Source: a virus. Taken from it: 45,199 nucleotides of DNA. The notes beneath the pieces were generated by a model. The model had not been told where the DNA came from. It saw nothing but the letters and a program-made list of their open reading frames with translations, and ran no database searches. Location: the IMG/VR virus record IMGVR_UViG_3300021375_000054, positions 1 to 45,199 of that record; one strand, written 5' to 3'. Positions 1,767 to 45,199 of this stretch are shown in pieces (the first letter of the stretch is position 1; each line of letters opens with the position of its first letter). The position numbers and the translations under genes are program-made.

Positions 1767-2318
1767 TTAATCTATTTCTAATCTTAGGTCTAGTTTATTG
1801 TAGAAGAAACTACATTCAAATGTATTAAAATCTGCAACATTCTCTGCCATATTTAGATTTAACTCGTTTATTGAGTTCATAATTATTTTATTGAATTCCA
1901 TGTATGCAACTGAAGCACCTTCACCGTCTAAAATCCTTAGAGTCATAGGTTCAATATAAGGCTCTTTAGTTTGTCTAGCATAATAGTATAAAAGCGTATC
2001 CATCATAATCCAATAATTAATGAATCCATCCAGTAACTGAAAAGTCACTGTAAATTCTCTTGTTATTGTATTTTGAATTGGTACCGCACCTCTATGATAC
2101 CTTGTTGTACCATCATTATCTGCCTGAGTAACTGGGTCAAATGTAATACCAGGTATATTAAGACCTTGGATAGAATAATTAACAAAATCAATTGGTTCTG
2201 CTAAAAGACCTCCAGGTACTTTATTCAAGTATGCTTTATACTTCTCAGCCACTTCATCTGGAATAAAGTTTCTTGGGAATCTAAAATCGTATGCGTTATT
2301 TCTACTATTTAATACCAT
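1767..2318 (-). CDS. Tail-tube-fold protein (gp19-like), putative
   Basis: The 183-residue protein has the pattern of T4-type tail tube monomers. There is an N-terminal arm (YDFRFPRNFIPDEVAEKY), a segment around SIQGLNIPGITF, then REFTVTFQLLDGFINYWIMM, then TLRILDGEGASVAYMEF followed by INELNLNMAENVADFNTFE and a closing ECSFFYNKLDLRLE strand. Tube proteins stack as hexamers inside the contractile sheath. The start ATG overlaps the stop of the 695-residue gene by one base (TAATG), suggesting coupled translation. Its position after fibre genes rather than beside a sheath gene means it could be a specialised tube or terminator paralogue rather than the main tube protein. Confidence 0.55.
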   Translation of the reverse strand: MVLNSRNNAYDFRFPRNFIPDEVAEKYKAYLNKVPGGLLAEPIDFVNYSIQGLNIPGITFDPVTQADNDGTTRYHRGAVPIQNTITREFTVTFQLLDGFINYWIMMDTLLYYYARQTKEPYIEPMTLRILDGEGASVAYMEFNKIIMNSINELNLNMAENVADFNTFECSFFYNKLDLRLEID

Positions 2319-15838: not shown

Positions 15839-18800
15839 TTATCTAAGTAATCTCGCAGCTTTAATAGAATTTAAGTTCTTACCTTTTGGACCGTACTTAG
15901 CAAATACTTCTAAATCAAATGAGAACTGTTCGCCATACTTATCAAAAATATCTAAACCTATTTTCTTAGTATAAGTTAAGTTATTATACGCAAGTCTTCC
16001 GAAACCACCAATTCTACCAGTGTCAATAGATTCGTTATTGCCAAAGTAATCAGTCATTCTGTATTGAAATACTATATCTACTGAAACTGCGTTAGACTCA
16101 TTATCTTTTTTTGCTCTAATTTCTTTTGCTGACCTTTTAGTTTCACCGTCAACTTTTAAACTATCTAAGTTAATTGGCGACATGAATAAGTAAGCACCAC
16201 ATGATCTACCGCCTAGTAGGTATTGGTCATTTGCATCAAAAGACATTTTAATAGGTCTTACGATAGGACCTTTACCTGCAGCAATTTGAGATGTATTTAA
16301 CGTAGAATCAAATAAATCTGTACCTGCGTGGAATGCAGTTTGTTGTTTAGCTGTAATCTGTGTTGTATTTAAGTCATACCCGAATATACTAAATAGAGTA
16401 CCACCTGTTGCTTGAATAGCAGTTTTACTCATTGAGAATATCATAGATTTTCTAAGATCAGATAAATTAACACTTCCTGCTGAAATTGCACTATCCCAAA
16501 TATTCTCTAGTAATGGATGGTCTTTATGTACAAATAGACCGTTATTGTACTCACTTAATGTAACTGTACTAGTACTAGTTGTATTAACTTTATCAGCAGA
16601 CCAAGATCCAGTATAATCACTAAATGAACCTGCCCAAATAAAATCAGTGTTGTTATTAGTAATACCCCATTGAACATCATTGTTTGTACTTAACTCGTAC
16701 TCGTAATCATCAATTGTTGGTGTAATTGTAGTATTAAGAGGAGATACAATATAGTGTGGATTTTGATTTGCAATATCCATATATCTACTGTAAACAAACT
16801 GACCTCTTCTTTGCATTGACTGATAAGGTGCGTCCCATGTATTATCATAGGTACCTTCTCCAGCCCCTGCACCAGACCCTGTGTTATTAGGGATATTTTG
16901 ATATTGAACTGGTACTAAATCGTAATTACCCTCTTCTTGATAGTAATTATCTCTAATAACCTTGTTATCAATAGCCTCAGTACTTTGATCATTTTCTTTA
17001 ATACCAAACCCATTATCGTGTTCTGGAGTACCAGGATTAACCGACTTGTATGCTGGTTTAGTTCTATCACCGATTAACCTAGAAACTAATTCTAATTTAG
17101 TAGCTTTACTATTTTCTAATTGTAACTTAAATGTCTTAGTTACAATATGTCCTTTTCTAATCGTAAGATCAGCAACCTCATCTACGTAATAGCCTGCAAA
17201 TAATTGAGTATTTGTATCTTTTACGATATTAGTAACCGTTCCGTCTTCTGATGTAATCTTAACAATAAGTTCTCCAACCTCAGCTTCAACAGTACCTTTA
17301 AGGCCTGCAATCTGTGCTTCTAACTCCGCTATTTTATCATAGACTGAAATTGGCTTTTGTTCTGGAGATAAGAATCCAGATGCAATATTTGTTGCAACGT
17401 GAGCATAATAGTTTTCATTTGCAGTAAATGCATCTTCAACGTGAGTGTAAACTCCTTGTGCAGTTAACTCTTCAACTATTTCTACTTTAGCTAATTCAGC
17501 AGTGTTAACTTCTACTACTGCAGCAACATCAGTCGTATCAACCTCTTCTTCAGGGAAAGAAACTGTAATTGGCTCTGACCAATCAGATAAGATTGGATTA
17601 GCAGGATAACCAGCTTCTGAAACCGATTTAATTCTAATTTCTACTAATTCACCTTGATTAATAGCAATATCTAATTGATTAAAGTTAATCTCTTGTCCAT
17701 CCTCGATCTTAGTTTCTTGCCATGTAAATTTACTAGCAATATTACCATCGTTGTCAATAGATTTTGCTCTTTGTCTAACTTTAGATTTCTTTTCATTCCA
17801 GTTTGAGAAAATAGCCTGCTTTTCTCTACTCTCATCAGTAAATTTAAGCTGTGCTGCTTCTGCTGCTTTACCAGAAGTAGATAGGTATCTATATTGTATA
17901 ATAAACTGTACAACATTTTGGTCTAAAGTATCTGCTACTTGTTTGGCTGCAGGTACTGCCCAAAAACCTCTAATTCTGTATTTAGGGGAAATCTTAGTTG
18001 CATTAGATGAAGCAGATAGAGATTGAATCTGTGTTACAATCGAGTTGTAAAGTTTAGATTCTGATACTCTTTCTTCAATTAATGCATTTAATTCGTTCTT
18101 GTCTTTATCTTTTTGAACTTGAGATGCGTATTTCTTAGTTGCAATTTCAGATCTCTTCTTAGAAATAGTATCATCTAATTTCTTTACAGCCTCAAGTACT
18201 TTTGATTTGTCTGCAGATAACTTTTTGATTTTATCTGCTGAATCATTATCTGTTAAGTGTTTATTAATCTGAACAACTTTAAAGTTATCAGCACTTAATA
18301 CAGGAGAGTCTGGTGTTACACCTACTGTCGCAGGTGGAATATTATCCTCTTTGATAGACATAATAAGTTTACCAAAGTCAGCTACATTAGCTTTATAGTA
18401 ATCAGATAATAAAGTAATACTACCATCTTCTTGTAGAATCTCTAAGTCGTTTGAATAGAATCCAATACCAGGCGACCACTTCTCAGCTAAAATCTTAGAT
18501 TGAGGATCTAAAGCTTTTACAAAACATAAAACTCTTTCATCAAATCCTACTGGAATCTCTAAGTCTAAATTGTTATCTTCAACCTTGTATACCGATAAAG
18601 TACCTGCGCCGATCTTAATAGCCTCATAACCTTCAATCAACGTAAGCTCAACTTGACGCGTCGATGCGTCTAACTTTGTGATTCTATATCTTGTGTTTTT
18701 AGAACCACCAGTGACCATCAATTGATCTCCTACGCGTAATAATTCAGTCTCATCTAAATCTTTATCGCTATCCGAGTATGTTAGTCTATCTAAAGTATAT

Positions 18801-19510
18801 AATTTAATAGCCTGTTTTACAGTTACACCATCTTCTAAAACTTCTCTTTGTGAGTTTGAGATCGATATAACATCAAATGTACCAGTAAACTGTGTAGTTC
18901 TATAAGGCATATCTCTTAACTCTTCATCAAGCGTATATGCTATATTGTTATTGACAATATCTCTAATCGTAGTTAGATAATCAATGTTATCTTGGTTTCT
19001 GTAGTTTTCGTTAAAGAAATCTACTGCTACCTGATTAGTACCATCAAATAAAATTCTTTTTACTAAAACCCTTTCTGTATCGTTTGGAATTTGACCACTT
19101 ACATCTATTGTTGTAATCAACATAGGGTTTAAGAAATCTTCAGCAAAATAATTTGGCTTTGAGATAAACGCAGTAGGTCTAGCTAAAGATGTAATATCAG
19201 CTGCAGGAGTCTTTAACGAAGTGGTAATAATGTTTTGGAAAGTACCATCTGGTAATTTCACCTTAGTAGAACCTTTGCCTAAACCTGCTAGAGCTTTTAG
19301 ATTATTATCTAATCTCTCTAGTTCTCTCTTCATATAACCAAACCCAGGTACAGATACTATTTTAGTACCCTCGTCAGTTAGAATTTCTAACGGGATGTCT
19401 TTTTGGTTAGTAGTCACTGCTTCATTAATACGCTCAAACGTCTTAAGCGAGTTAGTATTAATCTCTAACAGTTTCTTTAGAGAATTAGATATAGAGTTGT
19501 TCGTGTTCAT
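15839..19510 (-). CDS. Large virion structural protein, probable baseplate/fibre component (1223 aa)
   Basis: An N-terminal helical part (SLKKLLEINTNSLKTFERINE, then YMKRELERLDNNLKALAGL) looks like an oligomerisation or attachment segment. A beta-rich region follows, then a coiled coil (about residues 420-490, KIKKLSADKSKVLEAVKKLD). After it comes a fibronectin-type-III-like region (about 510-660, with WAVPAAK, QFIIQYRYLS and VEIRIKSVSEAG). A GSGAGAGE linker near residue 880 precedes a C-terminal domain rich in Asn and Thr. No signal peptide is present. It sits between two other large structural genes, two bases after the 646-residue gene. Tail-fibre hinge or baseplate pin are reasonable roles. 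It was not matched to a specific T4 gene. Confidence 0.6.
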   Translation of the reverse strand: MNTNNSISNSLKKLLEINTNSLKTFERINEAVTTNQKDIPLEILTDEGTKIVSVPGFGYMKRELERLDNNLKALAGLGKGSTKVKLPDGTFQNIITTSLKTPAADITSLARPTAFISKPNYFAEDFLNPMLITTIDVSGQIPNDTERVLVKRILFDGTNQVAVDFFNENYRNQDNIDYLTTIRDIVNNNIAYTLDEELRDMPYRTTQFTGTFDVISISNSQREVLEDGVTVKQAIKLYTLDRLTYSDSDKDLDETELLRVGDQLMVTGGSKNTRYRITKLDASTRQVELTLIEGYEAIKIGAGTLSVYKVEDNNLDLEIPVGFDERVLCFVKALDPQSKILAEKWSPGIGFYSNDLEILQEDGSITLLSDYYKANVADFGKLIMSIKEDNIPPATVGVTPDSPVLSADNFKVVQINKHLTDNDSADKIKKLSADKSKVLEAVKKLDDTISKKRSEIATKKYASQVQKDKDKNELNALIEERVSESKLYNSIVTQIQSLSASSNATKISPKYRIRGFWAVPAAKQVADTLDQNVVQFIIQYRYLSTSGKAAEAAQLKFTDESREKQAIFSNWNEKKSKVRQRAKSIDNDGNIASKFTWQETKIEDGQEINFNQLDIAINQGELVEIRIKSVSEAGYPANPILSDWSEPITVSFPEEEVDTTDVAAVVEVNTAELAKVEIVEELTAQGVYTHVEDAFTANENYYAHVATNIASGFLSPEQKPISVYDKIAELEAQIAGLKGTVEAEVGELIVKITSEDGTVTNIVKDTNTQLFAGYYVDEVADLTIRKGHIVTKTFKLQLENSKATKLELVSRLIGDRTKPAYKSVNPGTPEHDNGFGIKENDQSTEAIDNKVIRDNYYQEEGNYDLVPVQYQNIPNNTGSGAGAGEGTYDNTWDAPYQSMQRRGQFVYSRYMDIANQNPHYIVSPLNTTITPTIDDYEYELSTNNDVQWGITNNNTDFIWAGSFSDYTGSWSADKVNTTSTSTVTLSEYNNGLFVHKDHPLLENIWDSAISAGSVNLSDLRKSMIFSMSKTAIQATGGTLFSIFGYDLNTTQITAKQQTAFHAGTDLFDSTLNTSQIAAGKGPIVRPIKMSFDANDQYLLGGRSCGAYLFMSPINLDSLKVDGETKRSAKEIRAKKDNESNAVSVDIVFQYRMTDYFGNNESIDTGRIGGFGRLAYNNLTYTKKIGLDIFDKYGEQFSFDLEVFAKYGPKGKNLNSIKAARLLR

Positions 19511-27306: not shown

Positions 27307-28149
27307 TTATGAGTGGAACATCCAGTCCACACCTTCATCACCCTTGATTTCTTCAATAATCGACTCTAATTCGGTGTCTCCCATGTCTTTTATTGCGTCA
27401 TAGTCAAATTCTACATTACCTGGCAATGCGAATTTAAAGATGCCAAGTTTGGCACCTAAGGACTGCTTAATCTTAGCAGAACAATATCTAAAGAAGATCT
27501 CGTCTTCATAGATAGCACAGTCTGGTAGAGTTTCATAAACTTGTAGGATAACATCTTGTTTAGGTGTATCTCCTAGTATTTTTAACTCACCAGTTAATCT
27601 CGAGTACTGAAATGAAATAGGATTTTCTAAAATCTGTCTAGACAAATCAGCCATCGATGCGTTTAATACATAATATTGTAATTCTTCAGCTGCTTCTGCT
27701 GGACCAGATCCATCATACATGCCTCTAAATAACATTTTTTCTAAAGCGAAATCACCACCACCTTGAAACCTCATATCAAGGCCTTGTCCAACTCCACCAA
27801 AACCACTTCCTAAATCATGAACTCCAAATACTGAAAATACAGCACCGGATCCATCTGTACTAGCGTTAGGTAGATTTAAAGATCTATGGTTTTTAAAATA
27901 TGTAGAATCAAATACCGAAGAAGGTATATGATAATAGTTTTCTCTTACAGAATCTTCATAGTTTTTATAGAACCATTTTTTAGCTCTTTTAACTATGTTC
28001 ATAATTTCTCTTTGAGGTAGGTTAACAGGAACCATACAAGCGCCTGTTAAATCATCTCCCAATTCTTGAAGAAATGCATTTAAACAGTTATCACCAAACG
28101 TTCTTTCGTTGTTTAGGTTGGTTTCGTTACCTGATCTAATTTCACTCAT
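27307..28149 (-). CDS. Neck/head-tail connector-like structural protein (280 aa), putative gp13/gp14 type
   Basis: The N-terminal helical segment (PVNLPQREIMNIVKRAKKWF) leads to a Gly-rich loop (GSGFGGVGQGLDMRFQGGGD). Helix and beta regions follow, then a C-terminal signature FRYCSAKIKQSLGAKLGIFKF with LPGNVEFDYDAIKDMGDTEL. This K-x-x-LG...LPG...G-x-x-EL arrangement resembles neck proteins of T4-like marine phages that cap the portal and join head to tail. The gene lies between the amidoligase-like and gp25-like genes, with a 20-bp gap before gp25. Alternative: another wedge or hub component. The call rests on recalled motif similarity. Confidence 0.4.
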   Translation of the reverse strand: MSEIRSGNETNLNNERTFGDNCLNAFLQELGDDLTGACMVPVNLPQREIMNIVKRAKKWFYKNYEDSVRENYYHIPSSVFDSTYFKNHRSLNLPNASTDGSGAVFSVFGVHDLGSGFGGVGQGLDMRFQGGGDFALEKMLFRGMYDGSGPAEAAEELQYYVLNASMADLSRQILENPISFQYSRLTGELKILGDTPKQDVILQVYETLPDCAIYEDEIFFRYCSAKIKQSLGAKLGIFKFALPGNVEFDYDAIKDMGDTELESIIEEIKGDEGVDWMFHS

Positions 28150-28150
28150 T

Positions 28151-29464
28151 TTATTTTTCTATTTTTGTGCTTACCACTATTTCAGTATTATCTTCAAACC
28201 TAGCATATTTACTAAGGCCTCCCTCTCTAAAGATGCCACCTTTCATTTTACCTTTGAAAATTCCGTCTCTACCAAACACATAACAGTTGGTAAGTTCGCA
28301 ACTTCCATGAACATAACTAGACTCTACTTTACAGTCAATCAATTCACAGCCTTTATATAATTGACATCTTAAAAGTTGTCCACCAGTTACAGTGCCTCCA
28401 AATATAGAGCTGTTCTCGATATTACCTGATAACTCGCAGTCTATAAATTCAAATCCATCTAAAAGATATGCAGCACCAAATTTACCGTCTTTAACTTGAA
28501 TCGAAGAATAGTCAGAATCATAATTAATAATTCCCTCTTCTAACGATCCATTTGACAAAAGATCTAGTACTTTTTTCTTAAATCGATCCCATTGAACCTC
28601 AATAACCTGCGGATCGTCTTGTAAATCCACTAATATATTTATCTTCGGCCAATGTTTATTTACTGCTTTATAGTCTTTTAGCATTTCTGTTAGAGGCTCG
28701 TTCTTTTTAAGAATCCTCTTAAGCTCTATTTTATTCTCTGGTGAGAATCTAGGATTATGGCAAGATTTCCATATAGACATGATAAATCCATCTGCTAAAT
28801 GTAGAATATCATCCGCTCTTTTTTCATAATTTTTACCACCTAAATATCTAAATTCTAGATAGTTCTTTTGAGCCTTCTCAAAGTTAATACCATAATACTT
28901 AGTATTAGCAAATGTAAAATTGTCTTTGTTAACCATATTCTCATTATAGTAGAAAGCCTCGTGTTTTGGCATAATCCATTTAATAGATTTTGCATAAGTA
29001 GAGTCTTCTCTATTTGGAAAATATTTATAGATTCTTGCCTCATCAAACTCAAGGATAAACTTCATCACATTCATGTGTTGAATCATATTTCTATCCTCTA
29101 AGTAATCTGGGTTAAAAGACATATTAAGATGAATTGACGCTCTATCTGACGTATAGCCATTTTCACGAATCCATCCTAACATTTTTATGATAACTAGCCT
29201 TGCGTTTCTATAAGGCATAGGACCTGTTACCAACTCAATAAGACCTGCACCACCTGACATATCAGGTTCCATCTTAAATACGTCTGCTGATGGTACAAAA
29301 TCTGAATGAGCCTTATCTTCTAGTTTGATCTTTCTACCTAAAAGTTTAGATACAGACTTTTGGGTCTCTTCTAATTTTAAGTTAGAATAGAATTCAAACT
29401 CGATGCCCATTTGACTGGCATTCAGAACTTCTGAGCGGTGGGCGTTACTTTTTAACTTTTGCAT
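28151..29464 (-). CDS. Amidoligase-like (COOH-NH2 ligase) enzyme with C-terminal beta-helix-like tail (437 aa)
   Basis: The N-terminal half has hallmarks of the putative amidoligase family (glutamine-synthetase-like COOH-NH2 ligases): MGIEFEFYS at about residues 19-27, an acidic segment (KMEPDMSGGAGLIELVTGP, about 64-82), and a later ASIHLNMSF with a conserved-type His (about 112). These enzymes are predicted to join a carboxylate to an amine using ATP. From about residue 350 the sequence turns into short repeats rich in Cys, Gly and Ser (FIDCELSG, SSIFGGTVTGG, ELIDCKVESSYVHGSCEL), resembling pentapeptide or right-handed beta-helix repeats. It sits among virion genes, one base before the neck-like gene. 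Substrate unknown; candidates are a virion protein, cell-wall peptide or host protein. The family call is from motifs only. Confidence 0.6.
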   Translation of the reverse strand: MQKLKSNAHRSEVLNASQMGIEFEFYSNLKLEETQKSVSKLLGRKIKLEDKAHSDFVPSADVFKMEPDMSGGAGLIELVTGPMPYRNARLVIIKMLGWIRENGYTSDRASIHLNMSFNPDYLEDRNMIQHMNVMKFILEFDEARIYKYFPNREDSTYAKSIKWIMPKHEAFYYNENMVNKDNFTFANTKYYGINFEKAQKNYLEFRYLGGKNYEKRADDILHLADGFIMSIWKSCHNPRFSPENKIELKRILKKNEPLTEMLKDYKAVNKHWPKINILVDLQDDPQVIEVQWDRFKKKVLDLLSNGSLEEGIINYDSDYSSIQVKDGKFGAAYLLDGFEFIDCELSGNIENSSIFGGTVTGGQLLRCQLYKGCELIDCKVESSYVHGSCELTNCYVFGRDGIFKGKMKGGIFREGGLSKYARFEDNTEIVVSTKIEK

Positions 29465-29490
29465 TAATCTAGAGTATGATATTACTTTTC

Positions 29491-29500
29491 AATATATATC
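29491..29500 (-). promoter_or_regulatory. Candidate late promoter element GATATATATT
   Basis: A minus-strand GATATATA core lies in the 53-bp gap after the S1-like gene, 26 bases upstream of ATG 29464. The spacing is nearly the same as for the element before the S1-like gene (27 bases), which supports a shared role. Confidence 0.4.
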
Positions 29501-29517
29501 AAACTCTGTGGCAATAG

Positions 29518-30804
29518 TTATTGGGGTAATTTTAAAAACACTTTCATGGAGTCCTCGTCAATTCTAGTAATTTGGACATCAATATCATCGCCTGATGTAT
29601 AATTACTTAAAGTATCTTTAGGCAACTCACTGATGTGTAATAAACCTGTTACACCCTCTTCTATATTTACAAAAACACCATATTCTTTTTTGGTTTTAAC
29701 TTTTGCAGTTACAATAGAAGGAATCTGGTATCTAGTATTAATGTTTATCCAAGGATTAACTGTAGTAACCTCTTTTTGTGTTAGTGTTATTTTAGTATTG
29801 CTAATAATATCTTTCACAAAGAAATTAATTGGATCGCCTGGTTTAATATCTCTAGCTTTAAATTTAGTCTGAGTCTCTTCATCTAATTCATTAGTGTGAA
29901 TCATACCTGTTAGACATTTGTCAAACTCTACGAATACTCCGTATTTAGCAGTTCCAGTTACTAGACCTGATTTTTGAATTCCTATATTATCTTTAAGATC
30001 TTTAATTGCACTAGGGATTAGAGCTTGTAGATATTTTCTATGTGATACTACAATTGTACCTCTATCCGGAGAGAAACTAACCGGTACTACATAAATCTCT
30101 TCGCCGATAATAGAACTAAAGTCAGATAATTTATTAATACCCGCAAGTGAACCAGGCATAAAGCAATCGATGCCTTGTACTTTCACAATATAACCACCGT
30201 TCTCAATCATGTTCTTAACAGTACCTATCCAAGCAGTATTACCCTCCTCGATAGAATCTCTAAGATCCATAAATGTTTTCTGCTTAACTCCACCTGTAAT
30301 TGAGCCAGTTAATGTACCTTTTGTTTCTGTGATTAAGACTGCAGTCTCTTCACCTGGTAACATCATTCTAACTTCTTCAGATTCTTTTGAAGCCTTTACA
30401 TATACAGACTCTCTATATCCAATATCAACAGTAATCCATTCTTGATCTACTGCATAGATTTCACCCGTATGAATTTCTCCAATACGTAGGCTTGGTATAA
30501 TTTCAGGGCTATTGTCACTTAAAATGTCATATAACTCTTGGGCATAGGGCTCTCTTGAATAGACCTTATCACCATTTTTAGTCTTAATATGTGGGTTGGG
30601 TTTTCTAGTTCTAGTAACACACGTAGCTTCGTATGCGTCCCATAAGAATTCGCCGCTCTCATCGTAGAACTGCGCATGGGGATCTTGAGTTTCCTCTTTT
30701 ACTTCTTTTACTTCTTCTGTGGGTTTTTGAATAGTTTCAACTAATTCAACTGTAGTGCCTTCTTGGGCTGCAGTAGTAATTCTGCGTCTTTTTTTGTCTG
30801 ACAT
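29518..30804 (-). CDS. Phage-encoded ribosomal protein S1 homologue, four S1 domains (428 aa)
   Basis: After a charged N-terminal region (residues 1-100) there are four S1/OB-fold domains at about 106-168, 187-256, 276-345 and 361-427. The third and fourth show the typical S1 signature (TAKYGVFVEFDKCLTGMIHT; KEYGVFVNIEEGVTGLLHIS); the second is more divergent (GGYIVKVQGIDCFMPGSL, then IIVSHR-type ending IVVSHRKYL). Bacterial S1 usually has six domains and binds mRNA on the 30S subunit to help initiation, especially where Shine-Dalgarno pairing is weak. A phage copy could bias initiation toward phage mRNAs or protect RNA. It is preceded by a candidate promoter and flanked by a metallopeptidase-like gene and the amidoligase-like gene. 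Confidence 0.85.
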   Translation of the reverse strand: MSDKKRRRITTAAQEGTTVELVETIQKPTEEVKEVKEETQDPHAQFYDESGEFLWDAYEATCVTRTRKPNPHIKTKNGDKVYSREPYAQELYDILSDNSPEIIPSLRIGEIHTGEIYAVDQEWITVDIGYRESVYVKASKESEEVRMMLPGEETAVLITETKGTLTGSITGGVKQKTFMDLRDSIEEGNTAWIGTVKNMIENGGYIVKVQGIDCFMPGSLAGINKLSDFSSIIGEEIYVVPVSFSPDRGTIVVSHRKYLQALIPSAIKDLKDNIGIQKSGLVTGTAKYGVFVEFDKCLTGMIHTNELDEETQTKFKARDIKPGDPINFFVKDIISNTKITLTQKEVTTVNPWININTRYQIPSIVTAKVKTKKEYGVFVNIEEGVTGLLHISELPKDTLSNYTSGDDIDVQITRIDEDSMKVFLKLPQ

Positions 30805-30831
30805 TTATTTTTATTTAAAAGGTATTAACAT

Positions 30832-30841
30832 ATTATATATC
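30832..30841 (-). promoter_or_regulatory. Candidate late promoter element GATATATAAT
   Basis: A minus-strand GATATATA core begins on the last base of the upstream stop codon, 27 bases before ATG 30804 of the S1-like gene. The leader between them is AT-rich, with no Shine-Dalgarno site. Confidence 0.4.
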
Positions 30842-31215
30842 TACTTAAGTATTCGCTTTATCCAAGTGTAATGTTTTCTACTACTTAGGTAACTTAAGTT
30901 ATCATCATGGTCATAGGCCTCCCTTTCAAAGGAGATATTATAGTAAGCCTCTTTTGCAGATTTATAGATTGGAATTTTAATAGCCCACTCTAACACATAC
31001 CATAGATAAAACGGTATCACCAACATTTCCTCTTGTTGTTTAATATGAATAGATTCATGGTTAATGATTCTAGCGGCTTTCTTTTTCCAATAAGACGTTG
31101 AATTATATTTCTCTCTTAAAACCACGAACGGCCAAAGAGTAATACCACCAACTCTCATAAACCAGCTGATGTTATTTAAAAATTTGTCGCTATACTTTAC
31201 AATAGGTGTTTTCAT
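30841..31215 (-). CDS. Small zincin-like HExxH protein of flavobacterial type (124 aa)
   Basis: The motif NHESIHIKQQEEM contains HExxH (H53, E54, H57), the zinc-binding and catalytic signature of zincins. A downstream ISFEREAYDHD (about 95-105) offers Glu residues as a third ligand. The hydrophobic helix after it (VIPFYLWYVLEWAIK) and the overall pattern closely resemble a short uncharacterised family frequent in Flavobacteriia (NHExIHxxQQ...FYLWYxxE...ISFEREAY). This is one of the better hints to the host and suggests host origin. No secretion signal is apparent. Substrate unknown. It lies 14 bases after another HExxH gene. Confidence 0.65.
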   Translation of the reverse strand: MKTPIVKYSDKFLNNISWFMRVGGITLWPFVVLREKYNSTSYWKKKAARIINHESIHIKQQEEMLVIPFYLWYVLEWAIKIPIYKSAKEAYYNISFEREAYDHDDNLSYLSSRKHYTWIKRILK

Positions 31216-31229
31216 ATACTTTATATATT

Positions 31230-31697
31230 TTATTTATTAATACTGGGCACAAATAATTCATCTGTAAGTTTTTCAGCATGTTGTTCCCATGGTCTATCTT
31301 CCCATGTTTGATTCCACCCAAATACTTGATTATTCCATAAGACTAGACCAAGCCCTTCTTTCAATAAATTATTTTCAAATTGATAAACATGTACAAGCTC
31401 ATGAAAAAAGGTTCTCTCTAATTTTTCTAAATTATATCTACTATTTAATTGAATTAGATAAACACCTGGCAATATTTCAGTTGTCAGCCCAACAATTCTA
31501 AAATCTAGGGGCGACATTTTAGTCTGTATAAATGGTACGCGAAATGGCGGATTTTGCATCAATGAATCTCTTATGAATCTTTGTGAACTCTCATTGCTAA
31601 CTACTTCACTAACTGTAGCTCTTTTAAAGATTAAGACTTCAGCACGCTGGGGTTTATTATCTTCTATAACTTGAGCTATAAAGAGTATAAAAACCAA
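31230..31697 (-). CDS. Putative exported zincin-like metallopeptidase (155 aa), start uncertain
   Basis: The core FFHELVHVYQFE carries HExxH (H99, E100, H103), and WEDRPWEQHAEKL (about 132-144) resembles the third-ligand ExxA element of small zincins. The first residues are hydrophobic (VFILFIAQVI), consistent with a signal or anchor. No ATG is available; TTG at 31697 is the start used here. The frame stays open upstream with a basic IFRK just before the hydrophobic run, so a rarer upstream start could give a fuller signal peptide. Beside the second HExxH gene it forms a metallopeptidase pair in the accessory cluster. Substrates could be host envelope or phage proteins; unknown. Confidence 0.55.
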   Translation of the reverse strand: MVFILFIAQVIEDNKPQRAEVLIFKRATVSEVVSNESSQRFIRDSLMQNPPFRVPFIQTKMSPLDFRIVGLTTEILPGVYLIQLNSRYNLEKLERTFFHELVHVYQFENNLLKEGLGLVLWNNQVFGWNQTWEDRPWEQHAEKLTDELFVPSINK

Positions 31698-31754
31698 CAG
31701 AACGAGAATTTTTCTAAAGATAATAATAAAGTTTAATTGATTAATATATGTATC

Positions 31755-31791
31755 ACAAAAAACTTTGTTATTTTAGGCAAAATAATTGCCT
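31755..31791. promoter_or_regulatory. Two adjacent inverted repeats in a divergent intergenic region
   Basis: ACAAA-AAAC-TTTGT (31755-31768) and AGGCAA-AATAA-TTGCCT (31775-31791) lie between the leftward metallopeptidase gene and the rightward gene at 31857. This is where a divergent control region would be expected. The second repeat is followed on the plus strand by seven T residues (31797-31803), so a hairpin terminator is the alternative. No consensus promoter was clear. Confidence 0.35.
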
Positions 31792-31856
31792 CTAGATTTT
31801 TTTATGTCAATTATTTTTCGTATATTAGTACTGTAATTAAACAACAACATAATACA

Positions 31857-32306
31857 ATGAATAATAAAAACGAAGCATGGGTAGTAGAGGGGCTCGAAGC
31901 TCAATTTAACTACAAAGAAATTACATGTAACGGAGTCGGTGGCTCAGGTTACCAAACTGTTCTAAAATACAAAGATCAAATTCAATCTATTTGCCAAGAG
32001 GTTCGAGACTTACTCGGAGATCGTCTTTTTGATAAGATGGTTGCTCAGGCACAAGAAAGAGATAAGGATGCTGATTTCCATACTGGACGTAGATATTCTA
32101 GTGTAGAAGACAATGCTTATAGATTGATTACTGGAATCGCTAAGCACGTTTGGTCTTATTTACCTAACGAACACCTAGCTGAGATGCACGTAGGAGCCGT
32201 TCTATCGATGTTAACAATTGACGAAAAGGTTTATATGGTACTTGATGCTCTTCGCGACTGTGCGTCTGCAGACCACTGGTATACTTACGAAAAAGACTGG
32301 GGTTAA
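31857..32306 (+). CDS. Unrecognised protein (149 aa), lone plus-strand gene in the late block
   Basis: ATG 31857 is chosen (MNNKNEAWVVEGLEAQ). The in-frame extension to 31737 is a hydrophobic, low-quality sequence that would run through the inverted repeats. The protein is globular and mostly helical, with several Trp and Tyr residues and acidic surfaces (QEVRDLLGDRLFDKM, YRLITGIAKHVWSYL, DALRDCASADHWYTY). It has no signal peptide, membrane segment or known catalytic motif. It opposes all surrounding genes and its stop is shared with the convergent 597-residue gene (TTAA at 32303-32306). Orientation suggests separate, perhaps early, expression. Function unknown. Confidence 0.7.
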   Translation: MNNKNEAWVVEGLEAQFNYKEITCNGVGGSGYQTVLKYKDQIQSICQEVRDLLGDRLFDKMVAQAQERDKDADFHTGRRYSSVEDNAYRLITGIAKHVWSYLPNEHLAEMHVGAVLSMLTIDEKVYMVLDALRDCASADHWYTYEKDWG

Positions 32307-34096
32307 AATACAATCGGTACAAAACCAACCATTGGCACTGGGCCAGCAGGAGTTGGAATACCACCAAGATAAAGCAGCTTAAATTCTAGCAGGTGTAGAG
32401 CATACGCGCCTGCAACTGCTGTACTTACTGCCATTGCCGGCGGTTGTGTTGCAGGTAGTTTACTAAAAGTCTTACCTGTATTCCAGGCTCTTCTTAAATT
32501 ATTTGCAAGTCTATTTGCACTTCCATAATAGATTGGAATATAGATACCTCCGAGAGGTGGTACAATTAGAGCAGGTGGTGCTGATGGTGATTTAGCAAAT
32601 GGTTGTATAATACATGCGTACCAATATGCAATCGTCACTCTGGCCATCATCATATATGGGTCTCCAGCATAACCATTAGAACTAGGTAACCAAGGATGGT
32701 CTACTGCTGTTAAATCTTCTTCACACTCTTCAGCCTTCTTTTTAGCACATAGAGCTCTATGGTATTCAAACTTAAATAGAGTACCTTCTGGTTTTGGGTT
32801 AATTTCAAAGAATGCCTTCTGTGCATCTGCCTTCTGAGAGGCCGCCTTTAATTTAGACTTTGGTACCTTTCTCCACTTCTTTTCCCATTCATTTTTTTCA
32901 TATTTGTTCTTTACCCAGTTTTTAGATTTAATAAATTTAGGCGCATTATTCACAACACCATCTGCGTTTGCTGAAAATACACCAGTTCTAACTCCGGGGT
33001 ACCAGCTAAATGTAGCCACAACATTAGAAGTTAATACCTTAGGTCTTTGACTAGGTGACTCTGGTGGGAAGTGTTCAAAATCATACGCCACTTGTATCTT
33101 ATATTCATTTAACGGGCATTCTAATTCGTATGGTAGAGTAATTGGTCCAGTAGGATCTTTCTTAATTCTTTTCTTTAATAGAGTAGTATTAAAGAAAGTC
33201 CAAGTGTTTTCTTCTTCTTCCGGATGTACTTCATGGATTGCTTCAATACAAAGAGTACTAACATTATCTGCTAACTGTTTCCAATCATAACCAGCATCTT
33301 TAATATCATTTCTAGCAGTAGTATTAACATTAGGATATGGCATACCAGACCAACCAGAACCAAATCCACTTGAATTGCTATAGTTTTCTTTACCTAAACA
33401 TGAAAGCCAAATATAGAACTCCCATTTCTCATTCTTGTTAGTTAGTCTCTCAAATTGTTGTAATAGTCTACTAGCGAAAATCTTTTCTAATTCATCTTGA
33501 GTCTCGTTACCACTAATACATGGAAATTGAAAAAACTTAAATTTATATAAGTCATATTCGTCTTTAGCGGCATCAACAAATTGATTAAAAGCTTTATCGT
33601 TTTCTTTTTCTAATTCTGCTAATGCTTCTGCATCTGGCTGTTGCACATCCGGGCAGAAATCAGCATACGCAGGATGTGACTCTTTACCCATTTGAATCAG
33701 ATTCCCGGCTTCATCATATTGATCTTGTAGAGGTATATCACCCTCTTTTAATAGTCTTTCAAAAGCCCAACCATAACCATCTTTTAATAACTTTTCTGCA
33801 GCACCATTATTCTTATGTAATTCAGCAACATGTGTTTGTGCTTTATCTTTTACAGCTTCAAGGTAGTGCTCTGCTACAGCGACTCCAAAATCATATCTAC
33901 CTGATTTAAGTGAAGTATTAAATGCATTAACATAGTCTCCCTGGTTAGATTTTAGGGCAGAGTTAAGTGGATTACCGAATTCAGATACTTGAGTGGGTGC
34001 TGGATATGAAACTACAGCACCTCCTGGTTTTGTGAACTGTTGACTTGTAATCGTGTTCGCTAGGTCTGGTATAAATTTAGGCCAAAGTGCGGGCAT
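32303..34096 (-). CDS. Unrecognised virion/hub-associated protein (597 aa)
   Basis: The N-terminus (PALWPKFIPDLANTITSQQF) is followed by a long helical region with charged stretches (KENDKAFNQFVDAAKDEYD), and a central segment with ECPLNEYKIQVAYDFEHF. The C-terminal 120 residues are Pro/Ala/Gly-rich and hydrophobic (PPALIVPPLGGIYIPIYYG, then PAMAVSTAVAGAYALHLLEF and a PVPMVGFVPIVF end), possibly membrane-active or packed in the virion. It starts two bases after the gp5-like spike gene. This suggests a protein associated with the spike or hub, perhaps released on injection. I found no domain match. Confidence 0.55.
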   Translation of the reverse strand: MPALWPKFIPDLANTITSQQFTKPGGAVVSYPAPTQVSEFGNPLNSALKSNQGDYVNAFNTSLKSGRYDFGVAVAEHYLEAVKDKAQTHVAELHKNNGAAEKLLKDGYGWAFERLLKEGDIPLQDQYDEAGNLIQMGKESHPAYADFCPDVQQPDAEALAELEKENDKAFNQFVDAAKDEYDLYKFKFFQFPCISGNETQDELEKIFASRLLQQFERLTNKNEKWEFYIWLSCLGKENYSNSSGFGSGWSGMPYPNVNTTARNDIKDAGYDWKQLADNVSTLCIEAIHEVHPEEEENTWTFFNTTLLKKRIKKDPTGPITLPYELECPLNEYKIQVAYDFEHFPPESPSQRPKVLTSNVVATFSWYPGVRTGVFSANADGVVNNAPKFIKSKNWVKNKYEKNEWEKKWRKVPKSKLKAASQKADAQKAFFEINPKPEGTLFKFEYHRALCAKKKAEECEEDLTAVDHPWLPSSNGYAGDPYMMMARVTIAYWYACIIQPFAKSPSAPPALIVPPLGGIYIPIYYGSANRLANNLRRAWNTGKTFSKLPATQPPAMAVSTAVAGAYALHLLEFKLLYLGGIPTPAGPVPMVGFVPIVF

Positions 34097-43001: not shown

Positions 43002-43595
43002 TTATTGTTCTGTGTTAAAAAAGAATGTTTGAAATAGTCTACCACTATTAATGTCTTTGCCAAAATAGTCTAATGACGCATGAAAATAATCACCTCTATA
43101 AATTACTAATCTATTATATACATTAGCTATTCTATCTGTCATTTCCCATTTAGTCATATCTTGTGAATCTTGGTAGATATAGTCTAATAGTTTCTGGTTA
43201 ATAGTACCATCTTCATTTCTTGGTAATGTATCTAGGCCTGTTTCTTTATGTCTAAATAAACCAGTACCTCCTGATAAAGGAGCGTCTGGTGTTAAGTATA
43301 AAACTCCTGCCCACTTTGTACCACTATCAGCATGAATCCAAGTTCTATCTTGTGCTGTAGTATATTGATAAGAACCACAATAGCTTTCTAAGTTATGTGG
43401 ATCTGGCCATAAGATTTTACCATGCATAGGTTCAATGTGACTAGAAATATAGTCTCTTATACCATCGTTAATATCCGGTGCTGTTCTTTGGCCTGGATAA
43501 TTACCCATAACACCATAGTCTCTTGATAAAGCCCACGCCCTTACGTCATCGACATTGTCGTAAAAGTTATCTATAATTTGTAAACTATTTGCCAT
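43002..43595 (-). CDS. 2OG-Fe(II) oxygenase-like protein (DUF6445-type), 197 aa
   Basis: A double-stranded beta-helix pattern is visible: the first iron ligands as HxD at H88-A-D90 (TWIHADSGTKWAGVLYL), a distal His at about H172 (YRGDYFHASLDYFG) and an Arg about 14 residues later (SGRLFQTFFFN) for the 2-oxoglutarate carboxylate. The surrounding GVLYLTPDAPLSGGTGLFRH with the RLVIYRGDYFH strand matches small uncharacterised 2OG-oxygenase-like proteins found in bacteria and marine phages. Likely a hydroxylase or demethylase acting on protein, nucleic acid or a small metabolite; the target is unknown. It overlaps the helicase stop by one base (TAATG). Confidence 0.7.
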   Translation of the reverse strand: MANSLQIIDNFYDNVDDVRAWALSRDYGVMGNYPGQRTAPDINDGIRDYISSHIEPMHGKILWPDPHNLESYCGSYQYTTAQDRTWIHADSGTKWAGVLYLTPDAPLSGGTGLFRHKETGLDTLPRNEDGTINQKLLDYIYQDSQDMTKWEMTDRIANVYNRLVIYRGDYFHASLDYFGKDINSGRLFQTFFFNTEQ

Positions 43596-45199
43596 TAGTA
43601 TATTGTTTTAATTCTTTCTTCAAATGATGGAGGGAACGACCCTTTTTTATTTATCAGACTTCTAAAGCACGCGTCCAGGATATAGGTGACTGCCCAATCA
43701 TCTTTCGATCTGATACTACGACCAGCTCCCTGTTGTATTGCAATCCCTGTTTTCCAATCATACCATCCTGGAAATGTTTTCATTTTGGCTTTCACCAATG
43801 GATCTCCTAAAGAAGGATATGGTACTTTAAAAAAGATCTGGAATCTAGACTTATCGTCTTTTAAATCCAGACCCTCTAATAGTGAAGGCCCTAATAAGAC
43901 CTTACCGGCTGTTTTATTAAATAGATCAATCGCGCCACTCCTCTCTTTAGCCATGTCATAGGTTATGAAATTAAACCTACGCTTTGAATGTTGATTGATG
44001 TAGTTCATGAAATCATAGGAACCTGCGTGAATAATTCCACTCTGTCCTTTATGTTTCTCTAGGATTTTGTCTAAGGTCTTTACTACATGAGGGAGATTTT
44101 GTTCGCGTTCTCTAAAAGATAGTTTATGCCTGTTGACGAAAATGATGGGGGATTTTTTATAGTCGAAATTATTACTCATTCTAATAACTCTCGCATTACC
44201 CATTGCAGTATGTTTTGCAAATGATTTAATATCACCTAATGTTGCAGACATAAAGACTTTAAAGCCACTTTTCTTCTGTAAGAATTTATCAATCATCATT
44301 GCCTCTTCCAAACATAAGAATTGAACTTCATTCTCTTTCCTATTAATAACAATCGCGTCAGTGCCTAGTTCTTTAATTATGTCATGATAGTCATCAAACT
44401 TACACCAAATGTCTTTTAGTCTATCCATTCGCCCAAAAAAAGTCTGCCAATCCTTAGGGACATCTCCATTCCGATACTGTTGTTTGCTGCGCTTTAGGGC
44501 TGCAGTTCTGGCCTTGCGGTAAACCTTGGCAATACCTCTGAATTCGCTGATGTGCCTCATAAGCTCTTGGTGATCGTCTTCCCGCATTAAGCGGTCGACA
44601 ATATCTGCTATTCTATTCTCAGATACCCAGGCAGCTTCTATACCATGCTTCTGTATAAACCTATTCACTTCTCTAAATAACTTAGGTGTACCTTGATCTA
44701 TTCTAGGACTGAAATGTGATTGTACTATATTATCTACCTTATGTGCTTCATCAAAGAATACAAAGTCTCTTATAGGGAATGGTATCTCTCTGTCCTGTTC
44801 TTGCATCTTATCCTCTACATAATTCCTTTGTATTAGATAATATGAATAGTTGAAGAGAGCTACAGGTAGCTCCTTCGCGCGCTTTCTGCCCTGAAGATAC
44901 CCACAGGTTCCCCAGCAAGGTAATTTCTCTGCAGCTTCATACCCAATCCCTTTCATCTTACAATCAGCAAGAGAGAACGGCAGATCGTTTACGTTACAAT
45001 TATAGTTGTCTACTCCTCTTATACTTGGCCACTTAAGTTTTAGCCTTTTAAAGTCTTCTTCATACTGATCTTGTAACATTAGATCAGAGGTTACTAAATA
45101 ACCTCTTTTACCCAGTTCTTTTAGGACGTGCGCGGACCACATAGCAATTAGTGATTTACCACTTCCAGTTGGGGCATCTAAGATAATAGTCCCTTTAGG
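43595..45199 (-). CDS. DinG/XPD-like superfamily 2 helicase (5'-truncated at window edge)
   Basis: The frame is open to the right edge, so the N-terminus is missing. Near the edge is a Walker A motif (DAPTGSGKSLIAMWSA), followed by a Cys cluster typical of the Fe-S domain of XPD/DinG helicases (four Cys in NYNCNV, LADCKM, LPCWGTCGYL). Then come Walker B FFDEAHKVD (DEAH), a MSATLGD motif III, and C-terminal motifs V/VI (LLEGLDLKDD, PYPSLGDP, QGAGRSIRSKDDW). These helicases unwind DNA 5' to 3' or remove roadblocks and R-loops. In a phage it may serve replication, recombination or late transcription. An ATG at 45142 inside the frame would cut off the Walker A motif and is not the true start. Confidence 0.85.
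   Translation of the reverse strand, partial: PKGTIILDAPTGSGKSLIAMWSAHVLKELGKRGYLVTSDLMLQDQYEEDFKRLKLKWPSIRGVDNYNCNVNDLPFSLADCKMKGIGYEAAEKLPCWGTCGYLQGRKRAKELPVALFNYSYYLIQRNYVEDKMQEQDREIPFPIRDFVFFDEAHKVDNIVQSHFSPRIDQGTPKLFREVNRFIQKHGIEAAWVSENRIADIVDRLMREDDHQELMRHISEFRGIAKVYRKARTAALKRSKQQYRNGDVPKDWQTFFGRMDRLKDIWCKFDDYHDIIKELGTDAIVINRKENEVQFLCLEEAMMIDKFLQKKSGFKVFMSATLGDIKSFAKHTAMGNARVIRMSNNFDYKKSPIIFVNRHKLSFREREQNLPHVVKTLDKILEKHKGQSGIIHAGSYDFMNYINQHSKRRFNFITYDMAKERSGAIDLFNKTAGKVLLGPSLLEGLDLKDDKSRFQIFFKVPYPSLGDPLVKAKMKTFPGWYDWKTGIAIQQGAGRSIRSKDDWAVTYILDACFRSLINKKGSFPPSFEERIKTIY

Follow-up and report, generated by a model that had tools for sequence, protein, structure and literature searches.

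The window analysed in this work is the 45,199-nucleotide stretch of IMG/VR virus record IMGVR_UViG_3300021375_000054 (positions 1 to 45,199), and our subject is an interval of five genes, here termed A to E, which lies within the tail-gene block of this marine phage at positions 28151-32306. The core status of two of these genes, B and A, is well supported by comparison with relatives, as is a neighbouring swap site that holds the other three together with a promoter-like cassette. An initial annotation had described five open reading frames (ORFs), all of which were confirmed, with E on the plus strand and A-D on the minus strand. The same applies to its two HExxH proteins, C carrying HESIH and D carrying HELVH, and to its S1-like and amidoligase-like products, which correspond to B (Pfam S1, E 1.2e-24) and A (Pfam Amidoligase_2, E 3.4e-6), respectively. 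The placement of the interval between neck and spike genes was also borne out by matches of the flanking genes to phrog_211 (neck) and phrog_37871 (spike). A DNA-level search of the window against phage records returned no match. The features considered below are the following:

28151-29464, minus strand: gene A, glutamine synthetase (GS)-type amidoligase domain (about residues 8-255) and beta-rich repeat C-terminus; core tail-block gene
29518-30804, minus strand: gene B, S1-like, spanning bS1 domains 1-4 after an N-terminal extension of ~100 residues; core
30841-31215, minus strand: gene C, HESIH protein; cargo
31230-31697, minus strand: gene D, TTG start, HELVH protein; cargo
31737-32306 from TTG, or 31857-32306 from ATG, plus strand: gene E, predicted all-helical; cargo
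29493-29500, minus strand: GATATATA element in the leader of A (GATATAT in 78/78 marine A leaders)
30826-30841, minus strand: GATATATAATATGTTA element within the B leader, forming the inner boundary of the swap site (GATATAT in 72/72 B leaders)
31777-31840, plus strand: promoter-like cassette heading antiparallel cargo (model R1, 68.1 bits)
31775-31791: terminator-like hairpin, overlapping the cassette
32303-34096, minus strand: F597, core flanking gene whose stop codon bounds the swap site on the outer side
27307-28149, minus strand: neck gene, core, downstream of A (phrog_211; in all 80 IMG/VR loci)

Conserved order and leaders of genes B and A

Gene order was assessed in 80 IMG/VR loci, the best 80 of 136, which were fetched with A and therefore contain A by construction. 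The order B-A-neck was found in 78 of these 80 relatives; the two remaining contigs begin 77 and 52 nt upstream of A and are hence cut off before B. The neck gene followed A in 80/80 loci. Because A had served as the bait, loci fetched with E, outside the A set, were checked separately as a control. Six of them hold the swap site, and all five that are uncut have both A and B, the sixth being cut off within B. In one of the five (L097), A aligned in several pieces, perhaps owing to a frameshift or an assembly fault.

The tail block was also colinear in LR756500, a 462-kb huge phage. Four other huge phages keep A in the company of hub, gp7, neck or gp25 genes, with B at a separate location; in LR756504 and LR756501, B adjoins a homologue of window positions 1767-2318 (weakly similar to tail tube), and in two further huge phages it lies about 5 kb from a homologue of window positions 15839-19510. 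At the protein level, six huge-phage records (462-735 kb) were found to carry A, two of which have the same length and match, and B was detected in these same six as well as in 15 Lak phage records, among 37. From this synteny in marine relatives and huge phages, it follows that B and A have long belonged to tail-gene clusters and are not cargo. The initial annotation had asked whether the five genes come and go together, and the answer is divided: A and B are conserved in order, C, D and E are variable and do not move together as a single module either, and the five do not form one module.

The gap between B and A in LR756500 (L001, 18707-19974) amounts to about 1.27 kb, compared with 53 bp in the window. 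A was considered as a direct partner of B, given that ribosomal protein S6 is a substrate of RimK-type ligases. This candidate was set aside, since A stays among tail genes where B is elsewhere and Lak-A2 has B, with A not found there by profile.

With regard to transcription, two candidate promoters had initially been placed in the interval. A generic sigma-70 scan performed at chance level (31 sites found vs. 24.7 in shuffles, standard deviation 4.8); however, the relatives revealed three conserved promoter-like elements, namely GATATAT before A, GATATAT before B and the cassette before E. GATATAT was located at most 100 nt upstream of A in 78/78 and of B in 72/72 marine relatives, with 0.04 expected per leader (these counts omit the five huge-phage loci and loci with less than 100 nt upstream, two for A and six for B). 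It was absent from the leaders of F597 (0/53), neck (0/75), gp25 (0/79) and gp7 (0/68), and present in 2/2 hub leaders. All seven GATATATA copies of the window are on the tail-gene strand, six of them within 100 nt of a start codon. We read the GATATAT elements as putative late promoters.

The amidoligase-like gene A

Gene A scored 27.5 bits against PF12224 (Amidoligase_2), above the gathering cut-off of 22. In its structure model (predicted local distance difference test, pLDDT, 80.5; predicted template modelling score, pTM, 0.56), the N-terminal domain is of the GS type, and all 50 chains listed as structural neighbours were GS or GS-like (Z 8.9-10.3). With Foldseek alone, no match for A reached E <= 0.001, and the beta-rich repeat C-terminus was likened only weakly to pentapeptide-repeat proteins. 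Residues G20, E22, E24, H112, N114, E204, F205 and R206 were invariant in 29 sequences, down to 29% identity, and make up what we take to be the conserved Amidoligase_2 motifs GxExE, HxN and EFR. Given the invariance of these residues, A is probably an active ligase.

The target of amide-bond formation by such an enzyme would be a tail protein or cell-wall peptides, and the steady place of A among tail genes favours a tail protein as the substrate. That A instead alters host cell-wall peptides, for lysis or for the exclusion of other phages, is a proposal published for other phage amidoligases (PMC5498523 and PMC10580990, in the sections drawn on here). The genes described in those sections, however, come with glutamine amidotransferase or ATP-grasp partners, none of which was recognised among the scanned neighbours of A, and the tail-cluster location of A is maintained across huge phages; a cell-wall substrate is conceivable at something less than even odds. 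When compared with phage Amidoligase_2 proteins as portrayed in extracts of PMC5498523, PMC10580990 and PMC3890496, A is alike in Pfam family and GS-type fold and differs in being a single tail-block gene with a beta-rich repeat C-terminus and without recognised amidotransferase or ATP-grasp partners beside it. In the literature searched, no report of an amidoligase in huge-phage tail modules was found.

The swap site and its cassette

The region from F597 to B is spanned in 59 loci, near-duplicates included; together with the window, these 60 reduce to 35 distinct contents with 23 combinations of genes. The site was empty in 12 of the 59, with 44-49 bp from the F597 stop to the B start, and filled in 47, with one to five small ORFs each. 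Empty and filled sites have common edges, the F597 stop and the B leader, and the GATATATAATATGTTA element before B is nearly identical in both. The inserted accessory island of the initial annotation thus proved real as an insertion that splits tail genes, but it spans only about 30842-32302, i.e., C, D and E. Searches for repeats flanking the insert yielded merely short two-copy pairs, and no recombinase gene was recognised in the swap site.

Among the 35 distinct contents, E occurred in 24, C in 12, c1 in 11 and D in 8, in addition to rarer genes. D was lacking in 6 of the contents with C, and C in 2 of those with D and in 12 of those with E; wherever C or D occurred, E accompanied it. E, c1, c4 and others run antiparallel to the tail genes; C and D run parallel to them. 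C matches phrog_15610, annotated as 'protease' (E 4.2e-30), and D matches PHROGs of unknown function. Patterns built from a single sequence found no relatives of D, although such relatives sit in the A loci, and this miss is therefore a method artefact. The structure model of E is all-helical (pLDDT 89.4), and a fold search with it gave nothing convincing. Two rarer cargo genes also gave Pfam matches: c4 (L081:7121-8278, minus strand, and five further loci) is a poly(A)-polymerase/CCA-type nucleotidyltransferase (PF01743, E 9.7e-33), its six loci representing one distinct content, and c10 (L051:5315-5971, plus strand, and L046) is glycosyltransferase-like with a DXD sugar-binding region (PF04488, E 9e-12).

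The cassette was followed with a sequence model, R1, trained on 13 copies from this spot; recovery of those copies at the spot is by construction, and matches elsewhere are independent. The cassette was present in 47/47 filled and 0/12 empty sites, and all 54 matches in 996 kb of tail-block loci fell within the spot, which makes up 6.3% of the bases. It is much alike whichever gene stands first. In nine IMG/VR contigs of relatives, 34 R1 matches were obtained in eight, five of them being the spot itself and several weaker ones partial, and a 12-mer of the cassette occurred 25 times in the nine marine contigs vs. 5 times for a reversed-pattern control. The exact 42-nt core had 73 copies in IMG/VR. 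Of these, 42 belong to the spot; the other 31 lie elsewhere, that is, with no F597, B or A within 4.5 kb in the stored stretch. A flank of 3 kb or more is available on one side for 25 of the 31, and six have less than 3 kb on both.

An ORF lay within 90 nt of 71 of the 73 exact copies, and these ORFs belong to 14 families. Relatives of the cargo stood behind the cassette at other places as well, with identities of 96% for E, 77% for c15 and 57% for c11, and c18 was likewise found there. E also occurs away from the tail block in L125 (G009), at around 6 kb, with its own cassette, next to ORFs which we take to be DnaJ-, PhoH- and RNase HII-like.

Some further copies head other genes. At L222 (G003:C1:122100-123600), an ORF resembling sigma-70 region 2 (Pfam E 1e-4, just below the curated cut-off) lies behind a weaker cassette copy; its product may be a phage sigma factor able to recognise one of the two promoter types. 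In three different contigs (L217, L225 and L227), the cassette heads one and the same gene (MKKVIFDLDGTLALIDKRR...), whose product is presumably a HAD-like protein.

The cassette would be a promoter apart from the late ones, used early or in the middle of infection, and recombination between its copies and the flanking core genes would swap cargo plus promoter. For the marine lineage as a whole, we tentatively extend this to genome-wide swapping, in which a cassette of ~64 bp would move 'promoter plus cargo' among docking sites, one of which lies in the tail block beside a phage bS1 gene that would favour late tail mRNAs devoid of Shine-Dalgarno (SD) sites in their access to host ribosomes. 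Alternatively, the cassette might be a strong promoter kept by selection, with cargo being exchanged by illegitimate recombination without its participation. Its position directly before start codons at 71/73 copies and the lack of a recognised recombinase gene in the site are compatible with this alternative; nevertheless, the cassette is gone from 12/12 empty sites and the same gene families recur behind it at several places, which makes a role as promoter only rather unlikely.

PeSL elements of T4-like phages were reportedly the subject of work by Arbiol in 2010 and Comeau in 2014. The cassette pattern resembles these promoter/stem-loop (PeSL) cassettes as cited in part of PMC4503421: both comprise a short regulatory sequence that recurs ahead of small genes open to exchange, and both are associated with the shuffling of genes. 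In our data, the repeated promoter-like element stands directly before genes, as judged from ORFs within 90 nt at 71/73 copies, and the link to gene shuffling is seen in its presence at 47/47 filled vs. 0/12 empty sites and in the cargo families found at several places. The two differ in phage lineage and in the stem-loop, which is weak or missing at several cassette copies, and they were likened by description (PMC4503421, same part). No report of the cassette was found in the literature searched, the cassette sequence itself not having been used as query.

The S1-like gene B and the interval as a whole

Gene B aligned to model positions 18-344 of rpsA, i.e., domains 1-4 (E 3.3e-42), and matched residues 15-344 of Escherichia coli bS1 in the PDB, with the S1 domains in order, 1-2 and then the RNA-binding domains. 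In its third and fourth domains, aromatic and His positions were invariant or nearly so in 79 sequences. In a phylogenetic tree, nine marine S1 sequences, that of LR756500, four from further huge phages and one from a Lak phage formed a single clade vs. 15 bacterial S1 proteins (99% ultrafast bootstrap, branch 1.59). SD-like sites were found in 0/31 window genes and in 12/201 genes of 13 relatives, compared with 2.2 and 11.4 in shuffles, and adenine was enriched around -14 to -11 in the leaders of the window and of these 13 relatives. Judged by sequence, B belongs to a long-standing bS1 lineage of phages, here in a phage that lacks SD leaders.

According to the portions of the papers used here, the -14 to -11 zone is said to lie near S1 in Flavobacterium (PMC6847099), huge phages bearing rpS1 rarely have SD sites (PMC7162821), and late expression is described for a phage bS21 whose gene lies in a structural block of Bacteroidetes phages (PMC9723584). 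Together with the A-rich, SD-less leaders, this points to a role of B in late translation. As a phage bS1, B would dock on host 30S subunits and would favour A-rich, SD-less phage mRNAs during the mass production of structural proteins, which may amount to a takeover of late translation. That B instead belongs to the virion, or is delivered along with the DNA, would agree with its location in tail clusters of marine relatives and five huge phages; this is improbable, since B retains both the domain order of bS1 and, in domains 3 and 4, its aromatic and His positions, and the SD-less leaders fit a translation role.

B is similar to the S1-domain proteins of SD-poor huge phages, in a clade with huge-phage copies, and differs from the account given in the cited part of PMC7162821 as a conserved tail-cluster gene that encodes bS1 domains 1-4 and has a leader element to itself; that part leaves undecided whether the huge-phage S1-domain proteins are true rpS1. 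With the bS21 of Bacteroidetes phages (PMC9723584, in part), it has in common that a ribosomal protein gene lies inside a structural block; here, however, it is bS1, and the genes are tail and not head genes. Genes for bS21 were detected in 6 of 15 records searched (LR745206, LR756501, LR756502, LR756504 and the contigs of L045 and L125).

Relatives of C occurred in 111 phage records, for which the named hosts shown were mostly Bacteroidota (Phocaeicola, Riemerella, Maribacter and Prevotella), with one Shigella record. As no relatives of C were found in bacterial genomes by the two patterns used, the host call draws on these phage records and on the prediction, in the cited part of PMC7162821, that the largest related phages infect Bacteroidetes; on these grounds, the host would be a member of the Bacteroidota. 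At the right end of the window lie genes for a DUF6445 protein (43002-43595, minus strand) and for a protein with a helicase C-terminal domain (43595-45142, minus strand).

In our view, the interval is best explained as two things side by side, the core pair B and A and a swap site holding C, D and E, and we assign a probability of roughly 0.65 to this explanation as a whole. Several observations weigh against it. The five huge-phage records gave three weak R1 matches and otherwise lack the cassette, which is thus a feature of the marine lineage only, and several cassette copies have a weak stem-loop or none, the copy in the window having a terminator-like hairpin. B reached 138 bits vs. the TIGR00717 rpsA cut-off of 577, which only 2/14 control genomes passed, and the test for its uS2-docking N-terminal helix was not significant and spoke neither for nor against a late-translation role, with 472 (window segment) and 110 (Lak segment) of 2000 shuffles scoring as well. 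The count of GATATATA in the window was at chance level (7 vs. 5.0, with 23/100 shuffles reaching 7), the absence of SD sites may be a mere consequence of a Bacteroidota host, and the 'late' and 'early' timing is itself inferred.

The initial annotation had regarded the five genes as a single inserted module for host interaction or virion modification. Nothing was found in support of this reading beyond their contiguity and the reality of the insertion, and it is very improbable given that the 12 empty sites keep B and A though C, D and E are gone, and that the combinations of C, D and E vary.

For the biology of these phages, rpS1 emerges as a conserved component of the tail-gene clusters across a broad spectrum of huge phages, and the steady membership of B in them makes a takeover of late translation directly testable. 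The 73 exact places in IMG/VR marked by the cassette can be used to list the cargo repertoire, and the cassette itself offers a testable element by which very large phages might gain and lose small host-takeover genes, at a site with no recognised recombinase.

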